A DNA stretch of 64,000 nucleotides from Intestinimonas butyriciproducens (GTDB lineage Bacteria > Bacillota > Clostridia > Oscillospirales > Oscillospiraceae), in the NCBI RefSeq assembly GCF_004154955.1, contig NZ_CP011524.1:992001-1056000 (forward strand), written 5' to 3'. This document shows, piece after piece, positions 36,693 to 52,626 of the stretch. Under the pieces are notes generated by a model. That model did not search any database. It had not been told where the DNA came from and worked only from the letters and a program-made list of their open reading frames with translations. Positions within the stretch are counted from its first letter, which is position 1; each line of letters opens with the position of its first letter. A program made the translations under genes and the position numbers.

Positions 36693-37148
36693 ATGCTTTC
36701 ATTTTTGGCGATTACGGAGGCGGTAAAGGGGCTGGTGGAGGAGCGGTATCCGGAGAATACGGTCTATCTGGAGCGGGTACCGGTGGACTTTGCGCGGCCG
36801 TCCTTCCTGGTGGAGCTGGGGCCGGTGGAGATGCTGGACGCCTCGTGCGGCTGCCTGGAGGTCAAGGCCACGGTGGTGGTCACCGCCTTTGTGGAGGCGG
36901 ACGACTACTATAACAGCCACGTGCCGGACCTGATGACCCGGATGGGGGCGGTACAGGAGCTCTTCGCGGTGGACGGACTCCAGGTGGAGGACCGGTTCCT
37001 CCACGTGACGGCCAACAAGGGCAACTGCCAATTCGACTACGCGGAGACCAGCGTCACATTCCAGTATCAGGACGACCGCCCGGGCGGGGACGAGTGGCCC
37101 CTGATGGGCGAAATACAGACAAAGTGGGGCCCCCCGCAGGGCGAATAA
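36693..37148 (+). CDS. Phage tail terminator-like protein (DUF6838 type)
   Basis: First gene of the contractile tail cluster, 151 residues. It has the layout of clostridial phage tail-terminator proteins: MLSFLAITEAVKGLVEER, YLERVPVDFARPSFLVEL, then beta strands and a final VTFQYQDDR. Such proteins cap the sheath/tube at the head-proximal end; in a headless particle they close the tube. AAAGGAGGG is the ribosome site. Its place just before the sheath matches the PBSX order. The assignment rests on position and general similarity. Confidence 0.65.
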   Translation: MLSFLAITEAVKGLVEERYPENTVYLERVPVDFARPSFLVELGPVEMLDASCGCLEVKATVVVTAFVEADDYYNSHVPDLMTRMGAVQELFAVDGLQVEDRFLHVTANKGNCQFDYAETSVTFQYQDDRPGGDEWPLMGEIQTKWGPPQGE

Positions 37149-37153
37149 AGGGA

Positions 37154-37336
37154 CCCCACCGGGCCGTGAAGCCCGGTGGGGGGAGGAGGGAGAACGAAGC
37201 GAAGCAGATATCCGGCGGACAGCCGGATGGAGCAAAGCTGAGTTTCTTCCGACGACGTGGGGGAGAGGACGAACAACGGAATGGAGCGGATATCCGCCTT
37301 TTGGCGGATGGAGCGAAATAGAGTTTGTGAGGACGA
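37154..37336 (+). repeat. Hairpin and tail-cluster repeat R, copy 1
   Basis: An 11-bp hairpin (37154-37164/37171-37181) follows the terminator-protein gene. Repeat R follows at 37261-37336: a 28-nt left block GGGAGAGGACGA..., a variable hairpin (ATATCCGCC/GGCGGAT), and a right block GAGCGAAAT.GA.TTTG.GAGGACGA that ends 13 nt before the sheath start. The second copy is at 44205-44280. An imperfect earlier version of the hairpin plus right block lies at about 37207-37255. Confidence 0.6.
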
Positions 37337-37349
37337 AAGGGGAATTGAA

Positions 37350-38417
37350 ATGGGACTTCCCAGCATCAACATTGCATTCAAATCCACAGCGGCGAGCGCC
37401 ATCGAGCGCTCTGAGAAGGGGGTGGTGGCGCTCATCATCAAGGACGCCAAGGAGAACGGCGGCCACGCCTACACCAACGCCAGCCAGATCCCGGCCACCC
37501 TGGGGACGGACAACCAGGCATACATCCAGCGGGCCTTTACGGGGTATGTGAATACGCCCCGGCAGGTGCTGGTCTACGTGCTGCCCGCAGCGGCGGAGGC
37601 GCTGACCGACGCCCTGACGTGGCTGGCCACCCAGACCTTTGACTATCTGGCGGGGCCCCCCGACTGCACGGAGGCCGAGGCCACGGCCATCGCGACCTGG
37701 ATCGCCGGCCGGAGGAGCAACGACGCGGCCATCTGCAAGGCGGTGCTGCCCAACAAGGCGGCGGACAGCGAGGCGGTGGTCAACTTCGCCACCGGGGATA
37801 TCCTGGTGGGCACGACCGAGTTCACTGCGGCGCAGTACTGCTCCCGGATCGCGGGGCTCATCGCCGGGACGCCCATGACCATCTCCTGCACCTACGCCCC
37901 TCTCCCCGAGGTGAGCGACGTGGGGCGGCTGACCCGTGAGGCCATGGACGCCGCGGTGGACGCGGGCAAGTTCATCCTCTTCCACGACGGGGAGAAGGTG
38001 AAGGTGGCCCGCGGGGTGAACTCCCTCCAGACCACCACCCAGGACAAGGGGGACGCCTGGAAGAAGATCAAGATGGTGGAGGTCATGGATATGATCCAGA
38101 CCGACATCCGGACCACGGCCCAGGACGCTTACATCGGCAAGTACGCCAACAGCTACGACAATAAGTGCCTGCTGGTGACGGCCATCAAGGGCTACCTGGT
38201 GGGGCTGGAGCAGTCCGGCATCCTCCAGGCGGGGAGCTCCTCGGTGGGGATCGACCTGGCACACCAGGAGGCATACCTCCAGTCTGTGGGCACGGACACC
38301 TCCAAGATGAGCCAGCAGGAGATCAAGGAGGCCAACACCGCCGACAAGGTGTTTTTGGAGGCGTCCATCAAGATCCTCGACGCCATTGAGGATATCAGCC
38401 TCAATATCACAATCTGA
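37350..38417 (+). CDS. Contractile tail sheath protein
   Basis: A 355-residue sheath subunit of the XkdK/phage sheath family. It polymerises around the tube and contracts on triggering. Features: N-terminal GLPSINIAFKSTAASAIERSEKGVVALI, central YVLPAAAEALTDALTWLA, and the conserved C-terminal insertion-arm region IGKYANSYDNKCLLVTAIKGYL. ATG at 37350 has AAAGGGG 7 nt upstream; the frame is open back to 37257, but that part is repeat R. The tube gene follows 13 nt later. It is shorter than phage sheaths such as XkdK. Confidence 0.93.
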   Translation: MGLPSINIAFKSTAASAIERSEKGVVALIIKDAKENGGHAYTNASQIPATLGTDNQAYIQRAFTGYVNTPRQVLVYVLPAAAEALTDALTWLATQTFDYLAGPPDCTEAEATAIATWIAGRRSNDAAICKAVLPNKAADSEAVVNFATGDILVGTTEFTAAQYCSRIAGLIAGTPMTISCTYAPLPEVSDVGRLTREAMDAAVDAGKFILFHDGEKVKVARGVNSLQTTTQDKGDAWKKIKMVEVMDMIQTDIRTTAQDAYIGKYANSYDNKCLLVTAIKGYLVGLEQSGILQAGSSSVGIDLAHQEAYLQSVGTDTSKMSQQEIKEANTADKVFLEASIKILDAIEDISLNITI

Positions 38418-38430
38418 GGAGGGCTAAAAC

Positions 38431-38859
38431 ATGGATTCGGCAAAGCGAGTGATTTCAGGGACCTGGGGCGAGGTGTGGCTGGACGGAGACAAGGTATCCG
38501 AGTGCTACGGGCTCCAGGCCAAGGTGAGCTTCAACAAGGAGGACATCGCCCTGTGCGGGCAGATGGCCAGCGACAAAAAGGTGACGAGCATCGAGTGTAC
38601 GGGGTCCCTGCGGATGCACAAGGTGACCTCCCGGATGGCGCTGGCCATTGGGGAGAACATCCGAAACGGAAAGGACGTGCGCTTTACCATTGTGAGCAAG
38701 CTGAAGGACCCGGACGCCTACGGGGCGGAGCGGGTGGTCCTGAGCAACGTCAGCTTCGACGACCTCACCCTGGCCGACTGGGAGGCCAAGAGCGTGGGCA
38801 AGGTGGAGTGCCCCTTCACCTTTACCGGCTATGAGTTCCTGGACGAGATCAACGTATAA
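38431..38859 (+). CDS. Tail tube protein (XkdM-like)
   Basis: A 142-residue inner tube subunit of the DUF2001/XkdM type. It starts MDSAKRVISGTWGEVWLDGDKV and has SFNKEDIALCGQ, LRMHKVTSRMALAIGENI and FTFTGYEFLDEINV, the typical beginning and end of the family. Hexamers stack inside the sheath. It directly follows the sheath gene, as in PBSX and diffocin. Confidence 0.92.
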   Translation: MDSAKRVISGTWGEVWLDGDKVSECYGLQAKVSFNKEDIALCGQMASDKKVTSIECTGSLRMHKVTSRMALAIGENIRNGKDVRFTIVSKLKDPDAYGAERVVLSNVSFDDLTLADWEAKSVGKVECPFTFTGYEFLDEINV

Positions 38860-38871
38860 GGAGCGGCGCGG

Positions 38872-39198
38872 ATGAAAAAGAAACCTGCGGAGGGGCTGAT
38901 GCGCCACGCCATAGTGGACGGCAAGGAGAAATATGCCCGGATCGCGATCCACAGGAGACGAACGCCATTGTACGCCTTTGAACTGGTTGGAGTTCTAAAC
39001 GAGTATATGACGCCGGAGGGGCTGGACATCGAGGCTATGCGTACTGCGGCGACAGAGATATTCGCCCAAGAACATCCAGATTACGAGTATGGGGGCATGA
39101 TTTTGTCTGCGTTGGACTTCGCGCGGGTATTCAACCTCCGCCGGGGATCGTTCCAAGCGGCGGACCTTGCGCTTACGATAGAAGGGAGAAGCGTATGA
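38872..39198 (+). CDS. Tail cluster protein of unknown function
   Basis: A 108-residue protein (MKKKPAEGLMRHAIVDGKEK...) without a recognised family. It holds mixed charged alpha/beta sequence and no hydrophobic helix. AAGGAG precedes the ATG, and its stop overlaps the next start (ATGA). Position between tube and tape-measure chaperone suggests an assembly role. Confidence 0.65.
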   Translation: MKKKPAEGLMRHAIVDGKEKYARIAIHRRRTPLYAFELVGVLNEYMTPEGLDIEAMRTAATEIFAQEHPDYEYGGMILSALDFARVFNLRRGSFQAADLALTIEGRSV

Positions 39199-39584
39199 AC
39201 GAAAAGAGGAGCATTCTGGAGCTGCTGCTGCGGGAGGAGACGCCCAATGTGCGGAAAAGCCTGCCCACGGCGCGGTACCGTGTGAAGCGGCTGAGCGAGC
39301 TGCTGGGGGAGGACGTGGTATTCGAGCTGCGGGCGCTGCCCTACGGGAAGGTGAGCGAGCTGAAGGAGAGTATGTCGGAGGATCTGAGCGTACATATCGT
39401 GCTCTCTGGGGTGGTCTCACCGGACCTGAAGGACCCTGCGCTCCAGGCTAAATTCGGCGGAGCCACGCCGGCGGAGACGGTAAAGGCGCTGCTGCTGCCG
39501 GGTGAGATCGAGGACCTGAGCCGTGCGGTGGAGCGGCTGTGCGGATACCGGACGGCGACCATTGAAGAAGTAAAAAACGCCTAG
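39195..39584 (+). CDS. Tail assembly chaperone, short form (XkdN-like)
   Basis: A 129-residue protein positioned like XkdN/gpG, the tape-measure chaperone. It opens MNEKRSILELLLREETPNVRKSLPTARYRVKRL and later has ALPYGKVSELKES and the VERLCGYRTATIEEVKNA end. The stop TAG at 39582-39584 is preceded by a slippery A AAA AAC, and the -1 frame continues in a coding-like 50-residue tail, so a longer form is made by frameshifting. Confidence 0.85.
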   Translation: MNEKRSILELLLREETPNVRKSLPTARYRVKRLSELLGEDVVFELRALPYGKVSELKESMSEDLSVHIVLSGVVSPDLKDPALQAKFGGATPAETVKALLLPGEIEDLSRAVERLCGYRTATIEEVKNA

Positions 39585-39730
39585 AGGACGGCAGCGACGC
39601 GGAGCTGGGTCTCGTCTACTACCTCTTCCATGTGAAGGGGTGGGCCCCGGGGGACTACTACCGGAAGTCCCCCGGGGAGCGGGACCTCATCTGGGCGCTG
39701 GCGTCCTATGAGGTGGAAGCGCGAGGATAG
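39195..39730 (+). CDS. Tail assembly chaperone, long form by -1 frameshift
   Basis: Product of programmed -1 slippage at 39572-39578 (A AAA AAC, in-frame codons GTA AAA AAC). After the slip the reading frame continues CGC CTA GAG GAC and runs to TAG at 39728-39730. The added 50 residues look real (LGLVYYLFHVKGWAPGDYY, ERDLIWALASYEVEARG). Total about 178 residues. This is the gpG/gpGT arrangement conserved in long-tailed phages, where the ratio of the two forms is needed to load the tape measure. No stable pseudoknot was modelled. Confidence 0.75.
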
Positions 39731-39755
39731 GCGGAGCAGAGATCAAAATGAGCGC

Positions 39756-39779
39756 AAAAAAGCCGCCCCGAAGGGCGGC
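39756..39779 (-). terminator. Terminator of the minus-strand membrane gene
   Basis: On the minus strand a 7-bp GC stem with a TTCG loop (39779-39762), then TTTTTT (39761-39756), just past the stop of the gene at 39787. Confidence 0.8.
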
Positions 39780-39786
39780 GGAGAGG

Positions 39787-39996
39787 TCATTCATCTTTGG
39801 GCGGAAAGCTGGCCCAAACGGCCCAGAGTAAGCAGAGCAGGAACCCTCCCCACATCATGCCGTCGTAGGGAGACATATTACCCACCAAAGAGAAGAAGGC
39901 GGCACAGAAGAGAGTGCCAACCACGAGGAGCCACACGATCATAAGGATGACTGGTTCATGAGAGAGCGCCCGAAATTCTTTCCAAAAACGCTTCAT
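39787..39996 (-). CDS. Two-helix membrane protein inserted in the tail cluster (moron)
   Basis: A 69-residue protein on the opposite strand to every tail gene. After a basic start (MKRFWKEFRALSHEP) it has two hydrophobic helices (VILMIVWLLVVGTLFCAAFF and MMWGGFLLCLLWAVWAS) and ends PPKDE. It has its own AAGGAGGG site, a consensus promoter and a terminator, the hallmarks of a phage moron. A role in immunity to the particle, release, or host benefit is possible. No homology is recognised. Confidence 0.75.
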   Translation of the reverse strand: MKRFWKEFRALSHEPVILMIVWLLVVGTLFCAAFFSLVGNMSPYDGMMWGGFLLCLLWAVWASFPPKDE

Positions 39997-40020
39997 AACC
40001 GCAACCCTCCTTCTGTGGAA

Positions 40021-40049
40021 ATCATATCGCCAAAAAGGTAAAAAGTCAA
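40021..40049 (-). promoter_or_regulatory. Sigma-A promoter of the inserted membrane gene
   Basis: On the minus strand TTGACT (40049-40044), 17-nt spacer, TATGAT (40026-40021). It would start transcription only about 15-20 nt before the ATG. Confidence 0.85.
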
Positions 40050-40063
40050 GAGGAGGCGAGACT

Positions 40064-42187
40064 ATGCCGGAAGAAAGCATCAACATTTATATGTCGCTGG
40101 TCGACAAGGTGTCCGGCCCCCTGAGCGGCATCGGGACGAAGACAAAGGCATTCAGCAAGGAACTCCAGGAGCTGGAGCAGACTACACAGGCCTACAGCAA
40201 GATACAGGACAAGCTGTCCAAGGAGACGGTAGATTACCGGAAGAAGCTGGAGCAGTCAAGCGTGACGGTCAGAGAGGCGCGGAAGGCGTTCGCCAAGTAC
40301 AAGGACGAGGCGCATAAAGGCGCGCTGGATAAGGCGCTGGAGGAACAGGAGGAATACCGGCGCAGGCTCAAAGAGACGGAGACGGCCATGAAGAGCAACT
40401 ACGGCGCGTTGAAGTCGCTGATGGACCAGCAGCGAAAGGCGGAGAATCAGGGGGGAGAAACCAGCTTGGCAAAGGGGCTGATGTCTGCCGGCCTGGGGAA
40501 ACTGGCAAGTGATTCGCTGTCTCGTCTGGCCGGGTCAGTCCTGACCAGCGCCATAGGGGAACCACAAGCACAGTTAGTTTCCTCTATGGTTTCCGGGTTG
40601 ATATCCGGGGCGACTATGGGGGCCGTACTCGGGCCTACAGGGGCTGCCATTGGCGCGGCGGTAGGCGGCATATCAGGCGCTATATCCGGCGGGACGGAGA
40701 TTTTCAAGGCCAGGGACGACGCATTCAAGAGCTACTACGGAGAATTGTACAGCTCGGCGGGGGAACGGCACGCGGCGGAGCTGGAGAGCGGGTCGGGGAT
40801 CGCGTCGGGCCGGGAGACGGACCTCATTTCGTTCTCCACCCTGTTCGGGAGCCGGGAGACGGCAAATACGTACCTGTCGGGGCTTGTGAACATGGCCAAC
40901 ACCACGCCCTTCCTCTACGACGACCTGACGGCCATGAGCAAGACGCTGGCCACCTTCGGATACGATGCGGAGAGCATTCTGCCGGTGCTGTCCACCATAG
41001 GCGACGCAGGGGCGGCGCTGGGCATGAGCACCAGCGCTATGACCACGGTGGCCCAGGCCCTGGGACAGATGAAGTCCAGCGACAAGGCGACGCTGGAGTA
41101 CCTGAACATCCTCAACGGCCGCGGTATCGGCGCGGTGGGGATACTGGCCGAGGCGAAGGGAAAGAGCCGGGGGGAGATCTACAATATGATCTCCAAGGGA
41201 CAGATCGCCGGGACGGAGGCGGTGGAGATCATCCTGTCGGCCCTGACGGACGGATTCTCCGGCGCGATGGAGGAGCAGAGCAAAACCTTCGCGGGGCGGA
41301 GCTCCACGCTGGAGGGCTGGGAGCAGGAGATGGCCAACGCCCAGGGCGAGGCGTACAACACGCTGCGCAGCGAGGGGAAACAGCGGCAGATCGACTACTA
41401 TGCGGGCATCACCGACGAGCTGTCCGGACTCAACGCCATGATCGGCGCGGGAGAGGCCGCCCAGGAGAACCTGAAGGAGCAATATCTGCGGGAGGCGATG
41501 ACCACGCTGCTGACCGGAAAGGGGGGAAGCCTGTACAAGGGGGAACAGGCGGAGACGCTGGCCCGGCTGCACGAGGAGTACACCGCGCTGGCGGCGGCGT
41601 TCCAGGACGCGAGCGAGGAGGAAAAGATCACGCTGGGCGAAAAGGCGGACTCCCTCAAAAGTCAGGCGGAGGCCCTGGCGGAGGGGGCGTTCGACGCCAG
41701 CGGCGAAATGCAGGAGGTCAGGGACGTGGAGCTGGAGCTGATCTCAGCCATCCGGGAGAACACGCTGGCGCTGGGCGAGGCGGCCTACCTGGGGGATTAC
41801 GAGAAGCAGCAGGAGCTGTCTGTGGGGAGGGGAGGCGCGTATATCGACTCCCTTGACCTTCAGGAGCAGGCGGCGGGCATCCGGGAGTCCGTGGACCGCT
41901 TCACCGGACCGGGATACAACGGGCCCTTCGACGTGGACCCTGCGAACTGGAGCGCCCACGCCTGGGGGCTGGGCTATGTGCCCTACGACAACTTTCCTGC
42001 ACTGCTGCACCAGGGGGAACGGGTGCTGACGGCGTCCCAGGCCCGCGCGGCGGATCAGGGGGCTGGTCCCCGGGTGCAGGTGACGGTGACGGGAAACAGC
42101 TTTTACGGCTCGGACAAGGACCTGGAGGACCGTGTGGCCCGGCGGGTGGCGTCCGAGGTGGTACGGGCAGTGGAACTGGGGGTATAG
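40064..42187 (+). CDS. Tail tape measure protein
   Basis: A 707-residue protein that sets tail length. The N-terminal third is coiled coil (SKELQELEQTTQAYSKIQDKLS..., RRRLKETETAMKSN). A Gly/Ala-rich hydrophobic stretch (about 155-225, VSGLISGATMGAVLGPTGAA) follows, then the phage tape-measure core with FSTLFGSRETANTYLSGLVNMANTTPFLYDDL. The C-terminus ends in a hub-like part. At the commonly used 0.15 nm per residue it predicts a tail near 105 nm. AGAGGAGGCGAG is its ribosome site. It is short compared with siphophage tape measures and typical for contractile tailocins. Confidence 0.93.
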   Translation: MPEESINIYMSLVDKVSGPLSGIGTKTKAFSKELQELEQTTQAYSKIQDKLSKETVDYRKKLEQSSVTVREARKAFAKYKDEAHKGALDKALEEQEEYRRRLKETETAMKSNYGALKSLMDQQRKAENQGGETSLAKGLMSAGLGKLASDSLSRLAGSVLTSAIGEPQAQLVSSMVSGLISGATMGAVLGPTGAAIGAAVGGISGAISGGTEIFKARDDAFKSYYGELYSSAGERHAAELESGSGIASGRETDLISFSTLFGSRETANTYLSGLVNMANTTPFLYDDLTAMSKTLATFGYDAESILPVLSTIGDAGAALGMSTSAMTTVAQALGQMKSSDKATLEYLNILNGRGIGAVGILAEAKGKSRGEIYNMISKGQIAGTEAVEIILSALTDGFSGAMEEQSKTFAGRSSTLEGWEQEMANAQGEAYNTLRSEGKQRQIDYYAGITDELSGLNAMIGAGEAAQENLKEQYLREAMTTLLTGKGGSLYKGEQAETLARLHEEYTALAAAFQDASEEEKITLGEKADSLKSQAEALAEGAFDASGEMQEVRDVELELISAIRENTLALGEAAYLGDYEKQQELSVGRGGAYIDSLDLQEQAAGIRESVDRFTGPGYNGPFDVDPANWSAHAWGLGYVPYDNFPALLHQGERVLTASQARAADQGAGPRVQVTVTGNSFYGSDKDLEDRVARRVASEVVRAVELGV

Positions 42188-42189: not shown

Positions 42190-42951
42190 ATGGCGCGGCA
42201 ATTTATCTTCAAGGACACGGAGACGGGGCGGGAGCTGGTGCTGCCGGTGACGCCCGGGAGCTATGACGTCGAGCACGGGCGGAAGGCGGCGGGGATTACG
42301 ATGCAGGAGTCGGGGGACGTGAACCTGCCGGGTCCTGCGGTGCTGCTGGACACGGAGCTTACCTGCCTGCTGCCCGCCCAGGGGTATCCCTTCAACCAGC
42401 CGGGCGCGGGGACGAACCCGTGGGTATACCTGGAGCAGTTGGAGAAATGGAGCGACGCGGGGACGGTGCTGCGGTTCGTGGTGTCCGGGACGCCGGTGAA
42501 CGCGGCGGTGCTGCTGGACCCGATCCGTTACCGGGAGCAGGACGGGACAGGGGACCTCTACTGCACGATCCCGCTGCGGGGCTACCGCGCGCTGGCGGTG
42601 GAGACGACGGAAAGCCGCCGGACGGGGAACGGGGCGCGGACGGTGGAGGCGGAGCCGGAGCGGTCGGAGACGTACACGGTGGCGGCGGGGGACACGCTGT
42701 CGGCCATCTGCCGGAGGTTCTACGGCGACGCGTCGCTGTACGGGCGCCTGGCGGCGGCCAACGGGATCGCCAACCCCAACCTCATCCACCCCGGTCAGGT
42801 GCTCAAGCTGCCCGCCCGGGAGGAGCTGCCGGCGGCGGCGACGCCCTCCCGGTCCCAGAAAGCGGCGGCGGCCACGGTATATGGGCGGGACCCGGAGACG
42901 GGCAAATCCTATCTGAACCTCTCCCGGGACAAGCTGCTGGAGATCATGTGA
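42190..42951 (+). CDS. LysM-domain baseplate/tail protein (XkdP-like)
   Basis: A 253-residue protein. The N-terminal part resembles the gp53/XkdP baseplate hub connector (FIFKDTETGRELVLPVTPGSYDV), and a LysM domain follows at about 160-205 (ESYTVAAGDTLSAICRRFYGD...NPNLIHPGQVLKLP). LysM would bind peptidoglycan and help the tail pass the wall. It begins 2 nt after the tape measure stop. Confidence 0.88.
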   Translation: MARQFIFKDTETGRELVLPVTPGSYDVEHGRKAAGITMQESGDVNLPGPAVLLDTELTCLLPAQGYPFNQPGAGTNPWVYLEQLEKWSDAGTVLRFVVSGTPVNAAVLLDPIRYREQDGTGDLYCTIPLRGYRALAVETTESRRTGNGARTVEAEPERSETYTVAAGDTLSAICRRFYGDASLYGRLAAANGIANPNLIHPGQVLKLPAREELPAAATPSRSQKAAAATVYGRDPETGKSYLNLSRDKLLEIM

Positions 42952-42961
42952 GGAGGCCGTC

Positions 42962-43963
42962 ATGGAGGAAAAGCTGAAGCTGCTGATCACCCCGCCGGAG
43001 GGAGGGACCCGGGAGGCGGCGGCGCTGTGCCGGAGCGTTACGTGGGGCGGGAGCTACGACCAGGCGGCGCGGACGCTGGACTTCCCGCTGCTGGTGTGCC
43101 CGGAGGACAAGCGCCTACCCGCAGTGGACTGCCCTCCCGGGAGCCGGGTACAGTTCTACCGGGGGGAGACGCTGCTCTTCGACGGCTTTGTGTTCTCCCG
43201 GCAGCGGGACACGCTGTCCAACACGGTGGAGGTGTCCTGTGCGGACCGGGGGCTGTACTTAAAGCGGAACCAGGGGGCGTACCGCTTCCGGGGCCAGACC
43301 CCTGAGGGCATCACGGGGCGGGTGGCGGCGGACTTCGGGCTGACGGTGGGGAGCCTGGCCCGGACGGGGACGGCGATCAGCCGGAATTTTCCCGGGGTGA
43401 GCCTGTACCAGATCATCCAGACGGCGTACACCCAGGCGTCAGCCGCCACCGGGGGGCGGTATATGGTGCGGTTCCGGGGCGAGGCGCTGGAGGTGATCGA
43501 AAAAAAGCAGGGGGAGCGGACCCTGGCGCTGCGGCCGGGGTCCAACCTCATCAGCCTGACGGCCACGGACAGCGTGGAGAGCCTGGTGAACCGGGTGCAG
43601 ATCCTGAGCAGGGACGGCACGGCCAAGGGGAGCCCTGTGGAGGACGGGGCGTCCATCGCGCGGTACGGCCTGTTCCAGCAGATGGTGACGGAGCGCAGCG
43701 GGAAGGACGCGGCGGCGGAGGCAAGGAAGCTGCTGGAGGACAACGCCCCGGCGCAGAAGATCACGGCGCAGGTGCGGGGGAACCCGGCGCTCATCGCCGG
43801 GGAGTGCGCGGTGCTCCAGGAGCCGGTGACGGGGCTGTACGGCCTGTGCTGGATCGACAGCGACACTCACACCTGGAAGGGCGGGACCTACACCGCCAAG
43901 CTGGTGCTGAATTTCCGCAGCATCATGGACGAGCAGGAGGCGGGACGGCTGCCGGACGCCTGA
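42962..43963 (+). CDS. Late-control gpD-like baseplate hub protein (XkdQ-like)
   Basis: A 333-residue protein of the XkdQ/gpD type that forms the baseplate hub under the tube. It has VTWGGSYDQAARTLDFPLLV, then a beta-rich Tudor-like core (FYRGETLLFDGFVFSRQRDTLSNTVEV) and YLKRNQGAYRF. Start ATG follows GAGGAGG. It is followed by a 332-nt non-coding gap with strong hairpins before the next baseplate gene. Confidence 0.85.
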   Translation: MEEKLKLLITPPEGGTREAAALCRSVTWGGSYDQAARTLDFPLLVCPEDKRLPAVDCPPGSRVQFYRGETLLFDGFVFSRQRDTLSNTVEVSCADRGLYLKRNQGAYRFRGQTPEGITGRVAADFGLTVGSLARTGTAISRNFPGVSLYQIIQTAYTQASAATGGRYMVRFRGEALEVIEKKQGERTLALRPGSNLISLTATDSVESLVNRVQILSRDGTAKGSPVEDGASIARYGLFQQMVTERSGKDAAAEARKLLEDNAPAQKITAQVRGNPALIAGECAVLQEPVTGLYGLCWIDSDTHTWKGGTYTAKLVLNFRSIMDEQEAGRLPDA

Positions 43964-43973: not shown

Positions 43974-44112
43974 AGGGCCCGCCCTCCGGGGGGCCCCTTT
44001 CTTCCCGAAGAAAGGGGCCGGAAAGAAGGGCCAAAGAGGGGGATTTCGATCTTCCCCCTCTTTGGAATCTCCCCTTTTAAAAACGACCAATCAGGGGGGC
44101 CTCGGCCCCCCT
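43974..44112 (+). other. Cluster of strong hairpins inside the tail operon
   Basis: Part of the 332-nt gene-free gap after the XkdQ-like gene. In order: GGAGGGC/GCCCTCC near 43974-43988; a 13-bp stem 43992-44004/44007-44019; a 13-bp stem 44031-44043/44053-44065; and a 9-bp GC stem 44093-44101/44104-44112. None is followed by a T tract, so transcription may pass through. They could be RNase stops, attenuators or remnants of repeats. Confidence 0.6.
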
Positions 44113-44204
44113 ATTGGAGACACCCCCAGGAGCTCTTCTCCAGCGGCGTGGGCAAGCCGTCGGGAGAGGTCACAAAGGCCCCCACAAAGCCGCGCAGCTT
44201 TGTG

Positions 44205-44280: not shown

Positions 44281-44295
44281 GGAGGTTGCGAGGAC

Positions 44296-44571: not shown

Positions 44572-44725
44572 GCCGCAGGCACCGGCGAAGCCGGGACGCG
44601 CTTAGAGCGCGCACAGGCATTTTGCCGCAGGCAAAATCTTGGCGCAGGGCGGATCCACTCCGCCCGAGCAGGTCAAAGGAAGATGGGGCCCCCGCACGGC
44701 GGGAGCCGTGTGGGGAGGTGAAGGT

Positions 44726-45154
44726 ATGAGTACGACATTGTTCCCCGTGGTGCAGCCGGAGGCAGTCCGGACCGGGACGGCGCTTCCGCTGTGCCGGGAG
44801 GTCAAATGGGACTACGACGGGAACCGGCCCGTGTTCCGCAACGGAGAACCGGAGACGGTGGAGGGCGCGGAGGCGGTACGGGTCTGGGCCTGGCTGGCCC
44901 TGCACACCACCCGGTTCCGGCATGAGATTTACTCCCGGGCCTACGGGACGGAGCTGGAGAACCTGATGGGACAGCCGTACACCGAGGCGCTGAAGCAGTC
45001 CGAGGCCCAGCGGTACGTGCGGGAGGCCCTGGAGATCAACCCCTACATCAGCGCCGTGGAGGACGTGGGCGTGGACTTCGACGACGGGCGGCTGTCCATC
45101 TCCTGCACGGTGCGGACCATTTATGGAACAAGCGAGGTGAGATTACATGTTTGA
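44726..45154 (+). CDS. Baseplate wedge protein, DUF2634/XkdS-like
   Basis: A 142-residue relative of gp25/XkdS with the characteristic C-terminal VWAWLALHTTRFRHEIYSRAYG...LENLMGQPYTEALKQSEAQR. Such proteins couple the sheath to the baseplate. Start ATG at 44726 follows GGGGAGGTG; the longer frame from 44639 crosses hairpins and is excluded. The last 8 bases overlap the next gene. Confidence 0.88.
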   Translation: MSTTLFPVVQPEAVRTGTALPLCREVKWDYDGNRPVFRNGEPETVEGAEAVRVWAWLALHTTRFRHEIYSRAYGTELENLMGQPYTEALKQSEAQRYVREALEINPYISAVEDVGVDFDDGRLSISCTVRTIYGTSEVRLHV

Positions 45155-46190
45155 AGATATCACACCTGAGAGCATCAAGGCAGCCATCCTGGCGGAGGCC
45201 GGGGAGAGCCTGGAGACCCGTGAGGGGAGCTTTCTGGACTCCATGGCGGGGCCCGCCGCGCTGGAGATCTGGAAGGTCTACCAGGCGATGAACGCGGTGG
45301 TGTCCATCGCCTTCGTGGACGAGAGCTCGGGGGGCTACCTGGACCTGGAGGGGGCCAAGTACGGCATCACCCGGAAGCCGGGCGCCAAAGCACGGTGTAC
45401 CATGACCCTCACCGGCACGGCGGGGGCGACGGTACCGGCGGGGACGGTGTTCGTCACGCCGGGCGGGCTGGAGTTCGCCCTGACGGAGGCGGTGGTCCTC
45501 ACCGGGAGCGGCGACGCGGGAACGGCGGAGGCGGCGGAGGTGGGCGGAGCGTACAACGTGGAGGCGGGGGAGCTGTCTCAGATGGTGGCGACACTGCCGG
45601 GGCTGTCCTCCTGGACCAACGGCCCCGCCGCCGGCGGCACGGACCCGGAGAGCGACGGGGCCCTCTATGGGCGCATCCACGCCTACCTGAGCCGCCCGGC
45701 CACCTCCGGAAACGCCTACCACTACGAGCAGTGGGCGCTGGAGGTGGCGGGCGTGGGCGCCGCGAGGGTATTCCCCCTGTGGAACGGCGCGGGGACGGTC
45801 AAGGTGGTGCTGGTGGACGGCGGCATGGAGCCCGCCTCGGCGGAGATCGTGGCGGCGGTACAGGCCCACATCGAGGCGAACCGGCCCATCGGGGCCACGG
45901 TGACGGTGGCGGCGGCCGCGCCGCTGAGCATCAACGTGACGGCGGCGGTGACGCTGGATGGGAGCGCCCCCCTCAGCCAGGTCAAGACGGAGTTTGAGGC
46001 GGCGCTGGACACCTATCTCATGGAGCTGGCCTTCTCGGCCTCCACCCTGCGGTATAACCAGGTGGCCTATCTGCTGCTGAGCATCCCGGGAGTGTCCGAT
46101 TTTACGGCGCTGACGATCAACGGCGGCACGGGCAACGTGAGCATCGGGGATGAGCAGGTGCCCGTGAAAGGGACGGTGACGCTGACGTGA
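45147..46190 (+). CDS. Baseplate J-like protein
   Basis: A 347-residue gpJ-family wedge protein (XkdT type) that frames the baseplate. Features: ITPESIKAAILAEAGESLETREGSFL, SGGYLDLEGAKYGITRKPGAKA, the variable beta domain, and NANQ-less C-terminal region with YNQVAYLLLSIPGVSDFTALTI. It overlaps the preceding gene and shares GTGA with the next one, which implies coupled translation. Confidence 0.92.
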   Translation: MFEDITPESIKAAILAEAGESLETREGSFLDSMAGPAALEIWKVYQAMNAVVSIAFVDESSGGYLDLEGAKYGITRKPGAKARCTMTLTGTAGATVPAGTVFVTPGGLEFALTEAVVLTGSGDAGTAEAAEVGGAYNVEAGELSQMVATLPGLSSWTNGPAAGGTDPESDGALYGRIHAYLSRPATSGNAYHYEQWALEVAGVGAARVFPLWNGAGTVKVVLVDGGMEPASAEIVAAVQAHIEANRPIGATVTVAAAAPLSINVTAAVTLDGSAPLSQVKTEFEAALDTYLMELAFSASTLRYNQVAYLLLSIPGVSDFTALTINGGTGNVSIGDEQVPVKGTVTLT

Positions 46191-46720
46191 AACTGATTGG
46201 CTATCTGCCGGACTTCTACGCCGCCTCGCCCCAGATCGCGGCCCTCCAGGGGGCGCTGGAGCAGCAGACCGAGGCCCTGTGGACGGCGGAGAACGGGCTC
46301 ATCGATCAACTGGACGTTAACAAGGCCACCTGGGGACTGTCCTGCTGGGAGGCGTCCCTGGGGCTGGATGTGGACGTGTCCCGCCCCGACGCCTACCGGC
46401 GAACCCGCATCCTCTCCAAGCTGCGGGGGCAGGGCGCCACCACCGTGGCCATGATCCAGAACGTGGCCGAGAGCTTCTACAACGGCCAGGTGGCGGTGGA
46501 GGAGCAGCCGGAGGCATACCGTTTCGACATTAGATTCCTGAGCAGCATCGGGGTGCCGCCCAACCTGGACGACCTGTCGGCAGCCCTGGAGGAGATCAAG
46601 CCCGCGCACCTGGCATACGACTACATCATCCTCTACCGGACTTGGGGAGAGCTGGAGGAGAAGACCTGGGGAGAGCTGGAGAGCCGGACCTGGGATGAGA
46701 TTTTAGGAGGTGAGCTCTGA
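46187..46720 (+). CDS. Tail protein, DUF2313/XkdU-like (gpI type)
   Basis: A 177-residue protein that joins the baseplate to fibres. The N-terminal MKLIGYLPDFYAASPQIAALQGALE and the C-terminal AHLAYDYIILYRTWGELEEK are usual for the family. The end carries three tandem units of about nine residues built on TWGELE (YRTWGELEEKTWGELESRTWDEIL). It begins with GTG in the GTGA overlap. Confidence 0.87.
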   Translation: MKLIGYLPDFYAASPQIAALQGALEQQTEALWTAENGLIDQLDVNKATWGLSCWEASLGLDVDVSRPDAYRRTRILSKLRGQGATTVAMIQNVAESFYNGQVAVEEQPEAYRFDIRFLSSIGVPPNLDDLSAALEEIKPAHLAYDYIILYRTWGELEEKTWGELESRTWDEILGGEL

Positions 46721-46721
46721 G

Positions 46722-47588
46722 ATGGAGCAGACAACGAATTATGGCCTCAATAAGCCGGGCGGCAGCGACTATGCCAGGATCGACGCGCTCAACGCCAATA
46801 TGGACGCCGTCGACGCGGCGCTGAAGGACCTGGAGGAGAGCAAGGCGGAGGGGGCGGCGCTGGCGGCGCACGAAGCGGACGGAGTGAAGCACGTCGGCGC
46901 GGCGGAACGGACGGCGTGGAACGCCAAGGCGGACGGGGCGTCCACCAGCGCGCACATCTCCAACACCAACAACCCCCATGGGGTGACGGCGGCCCAGGTG
47001 GGGGCGCTCCCCCTGTCGGGCGGAACGCTGACGGGAAACCTTGATATTGCCAAAACCATAGCAAGCGTGGTCTTAAGGACTGGAGACTCGTCAAACCGCC
47101 TGTCAGGCCGCCTGATGAAAAACGCAAATGTAGAGGGCACTGTAGACGATGGGCTATATCTGACAGATTATGGCGCTGACGGCGCTGAGGCCACGCTAAA
47201 GATACAAGGGGGCCAGCAGCGGCTGCGGATCAAGTTGGGCGGCACGGATTATGCCGTGTATCATGAGGGGAGCAAGCCTACCCCGGCGGACATCGGGGCG
47301 GCGGTGAAGTACCGGTATACGGCGACGATCCCCACCGGAACATGGACGGAGGTATCCGGGGGCGGGTACTACAAGGACGTCACAGTATCTGGTATTACGG
47401 CGGCCATGACTCCCTGCGTGGGCGTGGTGCAGACCTCTGATGTCGTCGCCTCGGAGCTTATGGTGGAGGAGTTCGCCAACAACATTCGCAGGATCGAGAC
47501 TATGGCTGGCAAAATCCGGGTCTACACCAGGACCGACGGCGCAGCTCCGTCCGTCAATATACCGATCCAGCTCGTGGGCACGGTGTGA
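46722..47588 (+). CDS. Tail fibre protein
   Basis: A 288-residue fibre. It opens with the clostridial fibre start MEQTTNYGLNKPGGSDYARIDALNANMDAVD, has NTNNPHGVTAAQVGALPLSGGTLTGNL, the modular fibre linker, and ends with a beta-rich tip that may bind a surface ligand. ATG at 46722 was chosen because TAGGAGG lies 11 nt upstream; the upstream GTG at 46710 overlaps that site. It begins the first of two fibre cassettes. Confidence 0.88.
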   Translation: MEQTTNYGLNKPGGSDYARIDALNANMDAVDAALKDLEESKAEGAALAAHEADGVKHVGAAERTAWNAKADGASTSAHISNTNNPHGVTAAQVGALPLSGGTLTGNLDIAKTIASVVLRTGDSSNRLSGRLMKNANVEGTVDDGLYLTDYGADGAEATLKIQGGQQRLRIKLGGTDYAVYHEGSKPTPADIGAAVKYRYTATIPTGTWTEVSGGGYYKDVTVSGITAAMTPCVGVVQTSDVVASELMVEEFANNIRRIETMAGKIRVYTRTDGAAPSVNIPIQLVGTV

Positions 47589-47601: not shown

Positions 47602-48036
47602 ATGAGCGATTGTATTTTGCCGGTGATGGGTGACAATTTGTCGACCAAGCTGTGCAGCGGGAAGAAACTTCGAAAGGTAATCGACGCGACCTGCACCTCC
47701 ACATCTTTTAGAGACTTTACGTTCAGCGGAATTACTGCGGCGGAATTGAAATCCCTGCTTATCGGGAGCCCAATATTGATGATGGCATGCGAGTCAACTG
47801 ACTATTACATCACAGTTTTTGGAGCTGCGGCGGGAGTAACAGATTCAGCTACATCAGCACAATTTTATGCATCAGGGCTGAATGTAACCAAATCCAATGC
47901 GGCAAGCACTGGATACACGGGAAGTTTCTTTTCCGTCACCTTTGATACGCTTTTGGTGAGGCACACCTATAGCAACGGTTCTCGCGTTCCCTATGGCATC
48001 GATGGGACGGCGGCTAAATTTTATGTTTTTAACTGA
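47602..48036 (+). CDS. Fibre-associated protein, unknown function
   Basis: A 144-residue protein without recognised family, lower in GC than most tail genes. It opens MSDCILPVMGDNLSTKLCSG, has SGITAAELKSLLIGSPILMM and a beta-rich C-terminal half ending YVFN. GAGGAGGGTGGGG precedes the ATG. It may be a receptor-binding or fibre-tip protein, given its place. Confidence 0.65.
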   Translation: MSDCILPVMGDNLSTKLCSGKKLRKVIDATCTSTSFRDFTFSGITAAELKSLLIGSPILMMACESTDYYITVFGAAAGVTDSATSAQFYASGLNVTKSNAASTGYTGSFFSVTFDTLLVRHTYSNGSRVPYGIDGTAAKFYVFN

Positions 48037-48048: not shown

Positions 48049-48432
48049 ATGATCTTAAAAACCAATGGCCAGGAGGCGGAACTGCTGTCCTTTGTCCCTG
48101 GCGCACAGATGGTATGTCTGGAGACGGCGGAGCCGGTGGAACTGGGAGAGAGCCTGGAGGTGTGGACCGAGCTGGAGGACGGGCCTTTCCTGCTGGCCTC
48201 CTATACCGTGGCCGACTGGCTGCGGGTGGGACAGACGGGCGGATCGATCTGCCTGACACAGCTCCCCGTCCCGGAGCCCACCCCTGAGCCCGAGCCGGAG
48301 CCGGACGCGCTCACCCAGACCCAGCTTGCCGTGGCGGAGCTGGCACAGGTGGTCGAGGACAACAACACTGCAGCGCAGCTCGCCATCGCGGAGCTTGCCG
48401 AGGCGCTGCTGGGAGGTGAGACGAATGGCTAA
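48049..48432 (+). CDS. Fibre cassette protein with Pro-Glu linker
   Basis: A 127-residue protein. The N-terminal 80 residues are beta-rich (TNGQEAELLSFVPGAQMVCLE). A PEPTPEPEPEPD linker follows, and the last 40 residues form an Ala-rich helix (LAVAELAQVVEDNNTAAQLA). It resembles small proteins next to fibres in clostridial prophages. Its last bases overlap the next start. Confidence 0.7.
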   Translation: MILKTNGQEAELLSFVPGAQMVCLETAEPVELGESLEVWTELEDGPFLLASYTVADWLRVGQTGGSICLTQLPVPEPTPEPEPEPDALTQTQLAVAELAQVVEDNNTAAQLAIAELAEALLGGETNG

Positions 48433-48535
48433 GCTGTACGCGGACTTGATTCAAAAGGGGCTCAAGACCATCGACGACGTGCCCCTGCGCTGGCGGGACG
48501 AGGTCCAGGCGCTGCTGGAGGAGGCGCAGGCATGA
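48425..48535 (+). CDS. XkdX-like small tail protein
   Basis: A 36-residue protein, [19 protein letters not shown] then [17 protein letters not shown]. Short proteins of this kind (XkdX family) follow fibre genes in PBSX-type clusters. Its start overlaps the previous stop and its stop overlaps the next start (ATGA). Confidence 0.7.
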
Positions 48536-49905
48536 TCAGGCTTGATAACTGGCGCGTGACGCTGGAGGTGGGGGACCGGGAGCTCGGCTACGAGTCGGAC
48601 CACCTGCACCGGCGGCTGGAGATCGCCGCGGACCTGGACGCGGGGTGGGCGGTCAAGCTGGATATGGCTCTGGGGCAAGCAAAGAACGTGGTGGACCTGG
48701 AGCGGACGGGGGACGTGCTGTGGGTGGACCTCACGCGGGATATCCTGGCCTCCGACGGGCTGTACCGCTGTCAGCTCCGGGGGCTCAAAGGGGATACGGT
48801 GGCCCACAGCAACCAGTTTGAACTGCTGGTGAGCGGGAGCATCAACGCTGCGGAGGCATTTCCGAGCGTCGAGCCCTCGGAGCTTGCCCAGATGGAGGCC
48901 AGGGTCACGCAGGCCAAGGCCGACGCAGTGGCCGCCGCAGACCGGGCGGAAGCGGCGGCGGTCCACCCGCCCAAGCTGTCCGGGGATCAGACGTGGATGG
49001 TGTGGGACCTGGAGAGCGGGGCGTATCAGGATACCGGCGTCTACTCCGGCGGGGCGGCCCCCAACATTGGGCCCGGCGGGAATTGGGTCGTCGTCGGCGT
49101 GGATACCGGCGTATCGGCGACCGGTCCCAGAGGAGAACAGGGACCTATCGGTCCCGCCGGTCCCCAGGGAGAGAAGGGAGATCCAGGAGAACAGGGACCA
49201 GCGGGGCCCAAGGGAGACACCGGGGAGCAAGGCCCGCAGGGGTCGAAGGGCGATACCGGCGCCCAGGGATTGCAAGGCCCAAAAGGAGACCAGGGGGAAC
49301 AGGGCATCCAAGGCCCGCAGGGGCCAAAAGGTGACACCGGAGACACCGGCCCGCAGGGTCCCGCAGGTGCGGATGGCGTCGGCCTCCCCACGGTGACCGC
49401 AGAGGACAACGGCATGTATGCGGGCGTGGTGGACGGAGCGTGGGGCAAAGTGAGCGCGCCGGGTGGAGGTGGAGAGTGGACAGAGCTCTTGCGCAATGAT
49501 GGGATCGTGCTCGATTCTGCCGGGGTAGGAAGTGTCCAACTTACGCTAACCCATCAGTTGAGCACATACAAAGAGATGATGTGCGCAGTGGAATGCCCAG
49601 CTAATACGAAACAATACCAGCCATCCAGCATTACGGTGGATGGGATACAAGTCACTTTTTATCCGGGGGTTGTTCCTGCGAACACTATGAAGCAATATCT
49701 ATTCCACGTTACATTATTTGGCGACGGGTCTTTTGCGGAATATTTGTCAACTGCCACAACTGATATTCTGTTTGGGGCATTCCTGGGGGCAACCACCGGA
49801 GGAACCCGGTACGGGAAAATAGGAGTTCCTACAGGGCAGTTACGCATGGATTTTAATGCAGCAGACATAACCGGCACGGTAAAAGTTCGCATTTTGGCAA
49901 GATAG
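48532..49905 (+). CDS. BppU-like tail fibre with collagen-like repeats
   Basis: A 457-residue fibre. The N-terminal part (about 1-110) resembles BppU-type baseplate upper proteins ([23 protein letters not shown]). A helical segment follows at 115-145, then about 24 Gly-X-Y triplets (about 198-280, [20 protein letters not shown]). The C-terminal globular head (about 310-457) is lower in GC and is the probable receptor-binding part. Collagen-like rods extend fibres away from the baseplate. It begins the second fibre cassette. Confidence 0.85.
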
Positions 49906-50227: not shown

Positions 50228-50551
50228 ATGAAGCATCTGTACGAGTACATCAACGAGATCATGGACATCGCCGCAGTCAATCACGCGGAGCCGCAGAACG
50301 CCAAGGATATGTTTTTGGCCAACATCCGGAACGCCGGGGACCCCACGCTGCCCCACTACAGGGGCGCGGGGGATGTGGACTACGCCGCGCTGGCGGAGGA
50401 CCTGCCCAGACTAACCAATGAGGGAGCGGCCCTCACTCAGGCGTTATTTGACCACTACAAGGCGCTGGTGGAGCTCCGCAGGGCGGGGCGGTACGCCGAG
50501 GCGGTGGAGCTGATGCGCGGGGCGGTGGAGGCGGCTGAGGGCGATGAGTAA
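50228..50551 (+). CDS. Helical protein before the lysin, unknown
   Basis: A 107-residue, almost fully alpha-helical protein (MKHLYEYINEIMDIAAVNHAE..., YKALVELRRAGRYAEAVELM). Ribosome site GGAAAGGA. Its last 8 bases overlap the lysin start. No family is recognised; a regulatory or chaperone role for lysis is possible but unsupported. Confidence 0.65.
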   Translation: MKHLYEYINEIMDIAAVNHAEPQNAKDMFLANIRNAGDPTLPHYRGAGDVDYAALAEDLPRLTNEGAALTQALFDHYKALVELRRAGRYAEAVELMRGAVEAAEGDE

Positions 50552-52064
50552 GTACATCACCTCTATCCCACTGGGGGACATAGACAGGGTGCAAATCTAC
50601 ATCAACTCCAGCAAGCTGCCCCTCCGACAGATTGTGGCCCAAGAGGCTCCAGACCTTGCGATCACGGGCAACTTCTGGCTCTACGGCAGCTATCAGCCCG
50701 CGTGCCCCATCAAGGCTGACGGGAAGGTGCTGGCGACCGACGCATACCACTACCCGGCTCTGATCTGGGATACCGGGCCGGACATCTCCATGGGCATAGT
50801 CCCGCCCGGCGGGGCCTGCGGCAAGGCGAACTATATTGCAAATTCCGCCGGACTCTACCAGGGCAAGCCGGAGACCATGTACTGCAAGCCAGATGTCCGG
50901 GGGCGTCGCGGCCGGACGGGGTGGGGCTTCTGCGGCGGGGCGCTCGCCTTCATCGCCTTCCCGGATGGGAGCGACGGCATGGAGCCGGAGGAGCTGCGGG
51001 ACTATGTGCAGGGACTCGGATGGTCCGACTGCATCATGGGCGACGGTGGACGCAAGGTGAACTATTATAACAGGGCCACTGGGGATATGGTGCAGGGCCG
51101 TGACCCAAGCCAGAATCTGATTTTGGTCTACAAGCGCAAGGGGCACTCATCCAAGCCCGACGACAGCGATAAGGAGGACAAGCCTATGGACGACATCACC
51201 CAGGCCATCATGACCAACAGCGACTGCTACAAGGCCGGGAGGACCATTATCCCCAAGGGGATCATGGTACACTCCACCGCCACCCCGGGGGCGGATGCCC
51301 AGACCATCCGGTCCGCCTGGGACCGGTCAGGCGCAGAGGCGGCGGTCCACTACATCATCGACGACCAGCGCACGCTCCAGACCCTGCCGGACACCTGCCG
51401 GGCGTGGCACTGCGGCGGGGCGGCCAACAACACCCACCTAAGCTTTGAGATTTGTGAGCCCCAGGAGTGCCGCCTGATCCCCGCCGAGTGGATTGCCCTC
51501 AAACGGGGGTCCTCTGGCTGGGCTGTCCAGCGCCTCCAGATGGAGCTCCAGGCCAGAGGATACGACCCCAAGGGGGTGGACGGCTCTTTCGGGCCCGGCT
51601 GCGACGCGGCGCTGCGGGCCTGCCAAAAGGACCTGGGACTCACGGCGGACGGGTCCTGCGGACCGGCCACCCTCTCCAAACTGGCAAGCCGCCAGGGCTC
51701 GTATCTGGCTTACAACCCCCAGGATACCGCGACGTATTTCGGGGCCGTGTGGGGCCGCGCCGTGGCCCTGTGCGTCCAGCTCTGCAAGACCTACGGCCTG
51801 AGACAGTCGGATATCCTGTGCCACGCCGAGGGCTATGCCAAGAGCATCGCCTCCAACCACGCGGACGTGATGCACTGGTGGCCTTACCACAGTAAGACCA
51901 TGGATATCTTCCGGGCGGCGGTGGACAAGGCATTGGGCGCGCAGGAGCCGGATTACCGGGCCCAGGTACAGGCGCGCTTCGGGCTGGCCGAGGAGACCAT
52001 GGACTACCTGGAGGCGTACCGATACGGCGCGGACCTGCTGCAAAAGCTGGCCGCGGCAAATTAG
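50544..52064 (+). CDS. Two-domain lysin: phosphodiester glycosidase-like plus amidase with inserted PG-binding domain
   Basis: A 506-residue endolysin. The N-terminal 200 residues resemble phosphodiester glycosidases (NAGPA family), ending in GDGGRKVNYYNR and DPSQNLILVYK. A linker and an Amidase_2 (N-acetylmuramoyl-L-alanine amidase) domain follow: the first zinc His is in GIMVHSTATPG, the second in the ILCHAEGYAKSIASNH part. Between them, at about 317-378, a peptidoglycan-binding domain interrupts the amidase (SSGWAVQRLQMELQARGYDP, VDGSFGPGCDAALRA). In a tailocin it opens the producer cell. Confidence 0.85.
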   Translation: MSKYITSIPLGDIDRVQIYINSSKLPLRQIVAQEAPDLAITGNFWLYGSYQPACPIKADGKVLATDAYHYPALIWDTGPDISMGIVPPGGACGKANYIANSAGLYQGKPETMYCKPDVRGRRGRTGWGFCGGALAFIAFPDGSDGMEPEELRDYVQGLGWSDCIMGDGGRKVNYYNRATGDMVQGRDPSQNLILVYKRKGHSSKPDDSDKEDKPMDDITQAIMTNSDCYKAGRTIIPKGIMVHSTATPGADAQTIRSAWDRSGAEAAVHYIIDDQRTLQTLPDTCRAWHCGGAANNTHLSFEICEPQECRLIPAEWIALKRGSSGWAVQRLQMELQARGYDPKGVDGSFGPGCDAALRACQKDLGLTADGSCGPATLSKLASRQGSYLAYNPQDTATYFGAVWGRAVALCVQLCKTYGLRQSDILCHAEGYAKSIASNHADVMHWWPYHSKTMDIFRAAVDKALGAQEPDYRAQVQARFGLAEETMDYLEAYRYGADLLQKLAAAN

Positions 52065-52080
52065 GAGAGGAGTACTTATC

Positions 52081-52329
52081 ATGACCAACAAGATCAGCGC
52101 GGGCACGATTGCCCGGACCGTTGTACTGCTGCTGGCCCTGGTCAACCAGGTGCTGAGCATGCTGGGCGTCCAGACCATCCCCATCGCGGACGAGGACGTC
52201 AACACCCTCATCGCCACCGGCTGGACCATAGCCGCCTCCCTGGCGGCGTGGTGGAAGAACAACAGCTTTACACAGGCCGCCCTTGCGGGGGACGCCCTGA
52301 AGGACGAAATCAGGGCCAGGGAGGAGTAA
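52081..52329 (+). CDS. Phage holin (SPP1-type)
   Basis: An 82-residue holin with two hydrophobic segments (ARTVVLLLALVNQVLSML and IAASLAAWW) separated by TIPIADEDVNTLIATG, then an acidic/basic tail. This matches the SPP1-type holin family start TNKISAGTIARTVVLLLALVNQ. It forms pores that let the lysin out. It begins 16 nt after the lysin. Confidence 0.9.
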   Translation: MTNKISAGTIARTVVLLLALVNQVLSMLGVQTIPIADEDVNTLIATGWTIAASLAAWWKNNSFTQAALAGDALKDEIRAREE

Positions 52330-52332
52330 GCC

Positions 52333-52626
52333 ATGGCGGAGGACATCGCGGTCAAGGTGGCCGAAATTGATCAGCGGAGCAAATCGAACACCCACCGGCT
52401 GGACAAGGTGGAGGAGCGACAGGACAACCTGGACAAGCTGGTGTCCTCCGTGGAGGTGTTGGCGACACGGCAGGAGACGGTGGAGACCGACGTGAAGGAG
52501 ATTAAGAGCGACGTGAAGGCTCTCACCGAGAGGCCCGCCAAGCGCTGGGACGGTATCGTGGACAAGCTCATTTGGCTGGCCGTCTCGGGCGCTGTGGGAT
52601 TCCTTGCGGCACAGATCGTGAGATAG
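52333..52626 (+). CDS. XhlA-like holin partner
   Basis: A 97-residue protein: a coiled coil of heptad repeats (SNTHRLDKVEERQDNLDKLV and ATRQETVETDVKEIK) followed by one C-terminal membrane helix (LIWLAVSGAVGFLAAQIV). This is the layout of XhlA/haemolysin-type proteins in PBSX that work with the holin. It is the last gene of the cluster and is followed by a terminator. Confidence 0.87.
   Translation: MAEDIAVKVAEIDQRSKSNTHRLDKVEERQDNLDKLVSSVEVLATRQETVETDVKEIKSDVKALTERPAKRWDGIVDKLIWLAVSGAVGFLAAQIVR

Follow-up and report, generated by a model that had tools for sequence, protein, structure and literature searches.

The locus described here occupies positions 36693–52626 (approximately 16 kb) of a 64,000-nucleotide stretch of the Intestinimonas butyriciproducens chromosome, referred to throughout as the window, where its left neighbour is rpoC and its right neighbours are an L7Ae-like gene, rpsL and, by eye, an rpsG-like gene. 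Phage and genome matches point to kinship of this bacterium with gut Oscillospiraceae, and it probably comes from the gut. Judged from its sequence, the locus is probably a prophage-derived, R-type (i.e., contractile and headless) tailocin of the diffocin type, most likely in working order, whose parent prophage family persists in the same genome. This reading is based on the gene set and its order, the start of the locus at a tail terminator, a packaging-side fossil, a second headless locus found in another genome, and reading frames that are open and constrained. An earlier note on this DNA had described a contractile tail and lysis gene set with both chromosomal flanks inside the window, and had concluded that it was a tailocin (or contractile injection particle) by gene content and not a prophage. 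Both flanks were present and the gene set was confirmed by Pfam (XhlA by PHROG only); the headless tail content and open frames agree with the first half of that conclusion, but the second half must be qualified, as the locus derives from a resident prophage family and has a packaging-side fossil in its leader. That note had missed this fossil, the sister copies of the cluster in the same genome (B and C), and the record from a second genome.

Tail and lysis genes of a headless locus

Pfam profiles were applied to 20 open reading frames (ORFs) of the cluster and PHROG profiles to 10; all genes are on the forward strand unless stated. Eight of the encoded proteins (terminator, sheath, tube, tube initiator, hub, sheath initiator and both triplex proteins) were also compared with solved structures, including those of diffocin, the R-type bacteriocin of Clostridioides difficile (CD1362–CD1372). 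The cluster begins with the tail terminator, or collar (36693–37148; Pfam PF20765, E = 3.7e-5; phrog_525), such that its left edge coincides with the first gene a tailocin needs. There follow a tail sheath of 355 amino acids (aa) (37350–38417; Pfam, E = 2.5e-13; CD1363, E = 8.5e-96), the tail tube (38431–38859; Pfam DUF2001, E = 5.9e-52; CD1364, E = 2.3e-48), an XkdN-like tail assembly chaperone (39195–39730; Pfam PF08890, E = 2.9e-17), a 707-aa tape measure (40064–42187; Pfam TMP_3, E = 2.2e-22) and a LysM tail tube initiator (42190–42951; Pfam LysM, E = 1.6e-12; CD1367, E = 5.8e-14). The baseplate genes encode a 333-aa hub (42962–43963; Pfam YqbQ, E = 9e-51; matching residues 10–322 of the 581 in CD1368, E = 5.9e-44), a DUF2577 protein with an uncertain start, which is the positional counterpart of the diffocin spike CD1369 (44269–44571; Pfam, E = 1.1e-5), a sheath initiator (44726–45154, the longest frame starting at 44639; Pfam, E = 6.4e-31; CD1370, E = 3e-32), the triplex protein Baseplate J (45147–46190; Pfam, E = 2.6e-66; CD1371, E = 6.4e-54) and a second, Mu Gp48-like triplex protein (46190–46720; Pfam, E = 1.1e-28; CD1372, E = 2e-13, with two phage-type structures scoring slightly better).

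Downstream of these are fibre 1 (46710–47588; PHROG tail fibre), whose C-terminal part varies among copies, two further fibre-cassette proteins that resemble those of copy C (47602–48036; and 48049–48432, 127 aa), and a collagen-like tail fibre (48532–49905; Pfam collagen, E = 2.4e-15; also PHROG). The lysis genes encode an endolysin with Amidase_2 and PG_binding_1 domains (50544–52064; Pfam Amidase_2, E = 1.1e-13), an SPP1-type holin (52081–52329; Pfam, E = 1.3e-24) and a small XhlA-like protein (52333–52626; 0.0012, below the Pfam cut-off; PHROG 'hemolysin', E = 8.9e-14). Sheath, tube, chaperone, tape measure, hub, spike and wedge genes of a contractile tail were all present, the spike being assigned from DUF2577 and position alone, and the locus has lysis genes of its own. 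The frameshift site proposed for the chaperone is present; frame 0 extends to 39584, an A AAA AAC slip site lies in register at 39572–39578, and a -1 extension was found in all five copies examined, being 50 residues long in the window, B, C and the second-genome record (L083, below) and 61 residues in another locus (L086).

In the 20 cluster ORFs, Pfam detected no family of head, packaging or integrase proteins. Genome-wide matches to portal (PF04860, one place), large terminase subunit (TerL; PF03354, one place) and HK97-type capsid (PF05065, three places) all fell outside the window, in agreement with the claimed lack of capsid, portal and terminase genes. The single 'head and packaging' label in the PHROG scan (phrog_2163, E = 0.0015) was attached to fibre 1, which fits tail-fibre families better, and was set aside. 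Of the integrase, packaging and head genes of a complete temperate prophage, a 59-base fossil alone was recognised at the locus. A contractile, headless gene set would also suit an extracellular contractile injection system delivering a protein effector, but such systems carry an AAA ATPase; neither this nor any effector-like family occurred among the scanned ORFs, while lysis genes and a diffocin-type order were present, making this identity exceedingly improbable. PBSX of Bacillus subtilis shares a similar tube (XkdM, E = 9.5e-18) and an XkdN-like chaperone; PBSX particles, however, have heads that package host DNA, whereas the window locus is headless.

The diffocin-like gene order put forward previously was upheld. 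Seven of the eight compared proteins matched diffocin, their gene order following the CD numbering, and for six of them diffocin gave the top match; the tail terminator had no match among solved structures. The likeness therefore extends over sheath, tube, tube tail (CD1367), hub, sheath initiator and both triplex proteins, as well as the absence of a head. In a review (PMC13324602), the collar CD1362 is described as structurally homologous to a phage tail terminator, so that diffocin and the window cluster both begin with a collar or tail terminator; CD1369 is named as the spike; and the hydrolase domains of the diffocin hub are described as absent from phage PhiCD508. The window hub lacks the hydrolase half, in which it differs from diffocin and resembles PhiCD508 as portrayed there (PMC13324602); a hub with peptidoglycan hydrolase was regarded as a diffocin trait and not as a general requirement of tailocins. 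The cluster differs from diffocin also in having a collagen-like fibre cassette, no visible regulator, and resident sister prophages with the same module.

Packaging-side fossil and resident sister prophages

The leader of the headless locus (35907–36680, forward strand) contains a fossil of 59 bases (36132–36190, forward strand), which combines the end of a Com-like translational regulator gene, its frame broken (by eye), with a hairpin. In complete relatives this segment directly precedes the HNH gene and the terminase genes. The fossil was 93% identical to a prophage in a same-genus genome (G005) and overlapped a second match, to Flavonifractor phage Cormatin (82% in two pieces, E = 2e-4). 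The Cormatin features at this match are named 'translational regulator' and 'HNH endonuclease', and after them Cormatin has one hypothetical gene and then the small and large terminase genes. The corresponding region of copy B was recognisable by eye, though diverged, while the pattern of the fossil hairpin occurred once in the genome. Because the leader retains a fossil of the region that precedes packaging genes, the locus was once a prophage; from this sequence we infer that the packaging side formerly stood here, in the same orientation.

No long close match was found for 35547–36680, nor was a third complete prophage that could have been the source of the entire leader. Leader matches were obtained in four of 99 genomes, these being the source genome (itself plus 33 bases at 91%), G005 (59 bases, 93%), G078 (67 bases, 77%) and G003 (50 bases, 80%). 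The leader also aligned with C (140 bases at 66%, E = 8.5e-7) and B (205 bases at 57%, E = 9.1e-5); 100 shuffles gave eight matches at E < 0.05, and both alignments were better than the five of these eight that were listed (best 0.002); neither was used. A part of the leader (36298–36428) resembled the gap after the tube gene in C (C1:2019610–2019748) and a short segment in a relative (G078:C112:627–693), and could be a repeat that is scattered.

When the genome was searched for sheath genes, four places were identified: the window locus, two closely related copies, B and C, and a distantly related one at 524.6 kb. Copy B (C1:1115506 to approximately 1153950, i.e., 1.1155–1.154 Mb; sheath at 1138496) lies inside feoB, the right part of which resumes near 1153950 (by eye). 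It contains TerL, portal and capsid genes by Pfam and, by eye, a serine integrase within feoB (1115506–1116912), DnaB, replication genes, HNH, small terminase and connectors; this prophage looks complete. Copy C (approximately 2.0 Mb, minus strand, sheath at 2021241) has a capsid gene by Pfam, and a tyrosine integrase gene and repressor-like genes were recognised by eye; portal and TerL_ATPase were not found there by Pfam. The tape measure of C is fragmented, with three different N-terminal parts in series before one common C-terminal part (L009, 16165–18102), as if tape-measure alleles had been successively replaced. Copy C looks defective, and the fact that its tape measure is broken although a capsid gene survives speaks for the tailocin reading of the window locus. 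The earlier note had offered head and integrase genes of the element at other genomic places as grounds for abandoning its reading; such genes do exist, but they belong to the sister prophages and not to this locus.

The segment common to the window and its sister copies extends from 36678–36681 to 52639. In blocks longer than 400 bases, identity was 96.0–98.6% to B and 95.6–99.8% to C, with shorter blocks at 82–97%. For B, approximately 12.5 of the 16 kb of tail and lysis module lay in blocks of 96–98.6%, with two shorter blocks at 88% and some identical tracts; B differs in having head and packaging genes and another fibre cassette, and no match to the window holin was found in it. No relatives of the whole cluster were found at megablast level in the phage collection. 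More prophages are hinted at by the distant contractile sheath locus (C1:524578) and a further capsid locus (C1:1529693), and genes resembling parts of an integrative conjugative element stand to the right of prophage B (L008, 16832–19946; by eye, with no family search).

The chief rival explanation takes the locus for the functionless remnant of a decapitated prophage, i.e., a third prophage of this family that recently lost its left arm. This is possible but doubtful. Its tail genes would then look intact because the loss was recent and because gene conversion from the resident prophages refreshes them. The packaging-side fossil and the evidence of family decay provided by copy C are in keeping with such a remnant, but the left edge of the cluster falls at the first gene that a tailocin needs.

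A second headless locus, selection and segment exchange

An IMG/VR record from another genome (IMGVR_UViG_2667527550_000003; L083, or G099) has the same headless start, and its alignment to the window begins in the leader and runs through XhlA, with approximately 97% identity in most blocks. Its leader was 100% identical over 35907–35974 and 96% over 36095–36700, with 35975–36094 missing. An exact 26-base leader pattern occurred in this record alone within the viral collection, which may omit near kin of the source genome. L083 carries three insertions (37124–37337, 43977–44177 and 44573–44714) that are absent from B and C at these places; the first (forward strand) marks the headless lineage, while a further copy of the third occurs elsewhere in the cluster of both C and L083. 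The point at which the record ends is, in window terms, 443 bases away from the rpoC end, and a position beside rpoC is presumed. Therefore, the cluster is present in more than one strain, contrary to the possibility that it is a single-strain remnant, and the headless state is kept with intact genes in two genomes.

When the 20 window proteins were compared with L083, 14 matched nearly full-length in open frames (the tape measure at 41% identity), fibre 1 matched over 101 of 292 residues, the lysin matched in two short pieces, and orf108, fib2, o127 and o107 had no match. The fibre cassette is B-like in L083 and C-like in the window: the product of 47602–48036 had no match in B or L083, where a repeat protein of 382–386 aa follows fibre 1. 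Fibre, tape-measure and lysin alleles differ between the two headless loci, which accordingly have variable receptor-binding fibres.

Over 16 gene pieces, the window and L083 differed by 138.7 synonymous and 91.3 non-synonymous changes (dN/dS = 0.21) without stop codons. This total includes the end piece of the tape measure, which is aligned in this pair (5 synonymous, 0 non-synonymous) but misaligned in pairs with B, whose totals are not cited. Counts of private codon changes, taken at codons where a single copy departs from three that agree, cover 10 gene pieces; ratios of synonymous to non-synonymous changes were 16:6 in the window, 17:11 in B, 22:10 in C and 31:15 in L083, again without stops. 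For the window, p was 3.5e-6 if 25% of changes were synonymous by chance, and 4.4e-5 if 30%. On these codon counts, the headless copies show no relaxation of selection. A non-functional remnant accords poorly with these mostly synonymous private changes, and with a headless leader common to two genomes, at approximately 3% divergence in most blocks and with open frames.

Near-identical tracts were observed with both sister copies. Against B there were two mismatches in 37461–40660 and none in 50261–51060; against C there were none in 42661–43860 (comparison with C over 38661–41460 was distorted by alignment and was not used). In comparison with B, sheath, tube and chaperone together had 3 differences in 1878 bases and the terminator had 13 in 432. 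These values, with differing fibre cassettes and no regulator found at the locus, would fit a helper-dependent tail supplier, in which late functions of prophage B switch on the locus and its tails join B heads to give mixed virions with another fibre set. Such a role is very unlikely: B encodes a full tail of its own, and upstream of 36681 blastn gave no block common to the two (the 57% match of 205 bases coming from another comparison).

A broader proposal, in which the headless locus would belong with the resident prophages to a single system of exchange, with gene conversion of tail segments, mutual updating of fibres and tape measures, and the locus possibly donating whole tails to B heads, is unlikely. 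Fibre genes that change by recombination have been described (PMC13195805, PMC6331570) for the tailocins carotovoricin and R-type syringacins, with carotovoricin at one fixed locus; in having recombining fibre genes these tailocins are like the window cluster. Those systems are proteobacterial, whereas exchange in the window runs between a headless locus and resident prophages and reaches structural genes too; its position was observed in one genome and inferred in the second.

Other features differed among copies. A 108-aa ORF with no assigned function (orf108; 38872–39198, forward strand) was identical in B and was found in neither C nor L083. An antisense ORF (39787–39996, reverse strand), placed between the chaperone and tape-measure genes, encodes a 69-aa protein with two hydrophobic segments, which could be an exclusion or self-protection gene. 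Antisense membrane ORFs at this place were seen also in L086, L034, L083, L084 and copy C (L009), being strongly variable and, in C, several. Among 29 loci surveyed, 24 had a tape-measure ORF, and four of these (L034, L083, L084 and L086) had the antisense ORF; the survey scored prophage B (L082) as having none because the gap was misplaced, and separate inspection found the ORF in B. Strict pairing of antisense ORF and tape-measure allele was rejected, since the first remnant in C shares 59 tape-measure residues with the window while its antisense ORF differs, and the tape measures of L083 and L084 begin alike while theirs differ. Short, hairpin-rich stretches at gene junctions (37124–37337 and 44204–44280) resemble each other and C1:103518; a junction-stretch query matched six places in the genome, itself included, in differing parts.

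Chromosomal setting, regulation and significance

Both rpoC and rpsL were located in seven same-genus relatives. They adjoin in two (G005 and G008), with approximately 190–230 bases between rpoC and the L7Ae-like gene, and lie on separate contigs in five, with other neighbour genes where inspected; the statement that these genes are normally adjacent therefore holds for the former and not for the latter. In same-genus relatives (loci L013, L017 and L053–L056), the str operon adjoins a fructose-bisphosphatase-like gene and a LacI-like regulator gene lies 3' of rpoC (by eye). Among 60 genomes including the source, 48 had a located rpsL and 14 had a sheath match, yet no sheath gene stood near rpsL in the other 59 (many of them drafts); the single pair on one contig was approximately 125 kb apart (G032). 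A conserved location in the rif-str region thus found no support. No attachment-site repeat of 9–20 bases was found between 35465–36130 and 52627–52960, and no report of a tailocin beside rpoC was met in a literature search judged by titles and the beginnings of abstracts.

The earlier suggestion that particle production is tied to growth or ribosomal expression was not sustained. A promoter-like site of the str operon (TTGACT-17-TATAAT; 52917–52945, forward strand) lies to the right of the insert, in the flank common with relatives; coupling to rpsL was rejected, and no link of the locus to growth was seen, because of this position. There is no evidence for coupling to rpoC by read-through: a perfect inverted repeat 3' of rpoC (35513–35546, forward strand; self-match) is a possible end of rpoC transcription but was not listed by the terminator scan, which did call the fossil hairpin (36160–36181).

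Several points weigh against a working tailocin. In 35400–37400, no promoter-like site was found, where 0.7 were expected from shuffles (a weak test). The LexA-like pattern GAACNNNNGTTC was absent near the locus and occurred once in the window, at 5960, against 0.8 expected, in a simple scan of low power. No regulator gene was seen at the locus. These negative results, weak as the tests were, would suit a remnant also. The near-identical tracts with B and C, which are likewise in the remnant's favour, show recent exchange that is able to keep frames intact without any use of the headless state, and recent conversion may supply part of the selection signal. Moreover, the headless locus is known from two genomes only, and expression, particle formation and killing are predictions from its genes.

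If the locus is a diffocin-type tailocin, as seems probable, its genes would be expressed under stress and tails would assemble on the 707-aa tape measure. The holin and amidase would then lyse the cell and release the tails, the fibre cassette would select related target bacteria, and contraction would depolarise them. Fibre, tape-measure and lysin alleles would be renewed by recombination with the tail modules of resident prophages. Most often, a tailocin comes to notice once it is domesticated and its parent is absent. Here, the record of origin is unusually clear: a single genome has two prophages with this tail module, one seemingly complete and one in decay, together with a headless locus that has the module too and retains a packaging-side fossil, while a second genome has the headless locus with swapped fibres. 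How a phage turned into a weapon, and how the weapon goes on exchanging segments with phages, can be tested directly in these bacteria.

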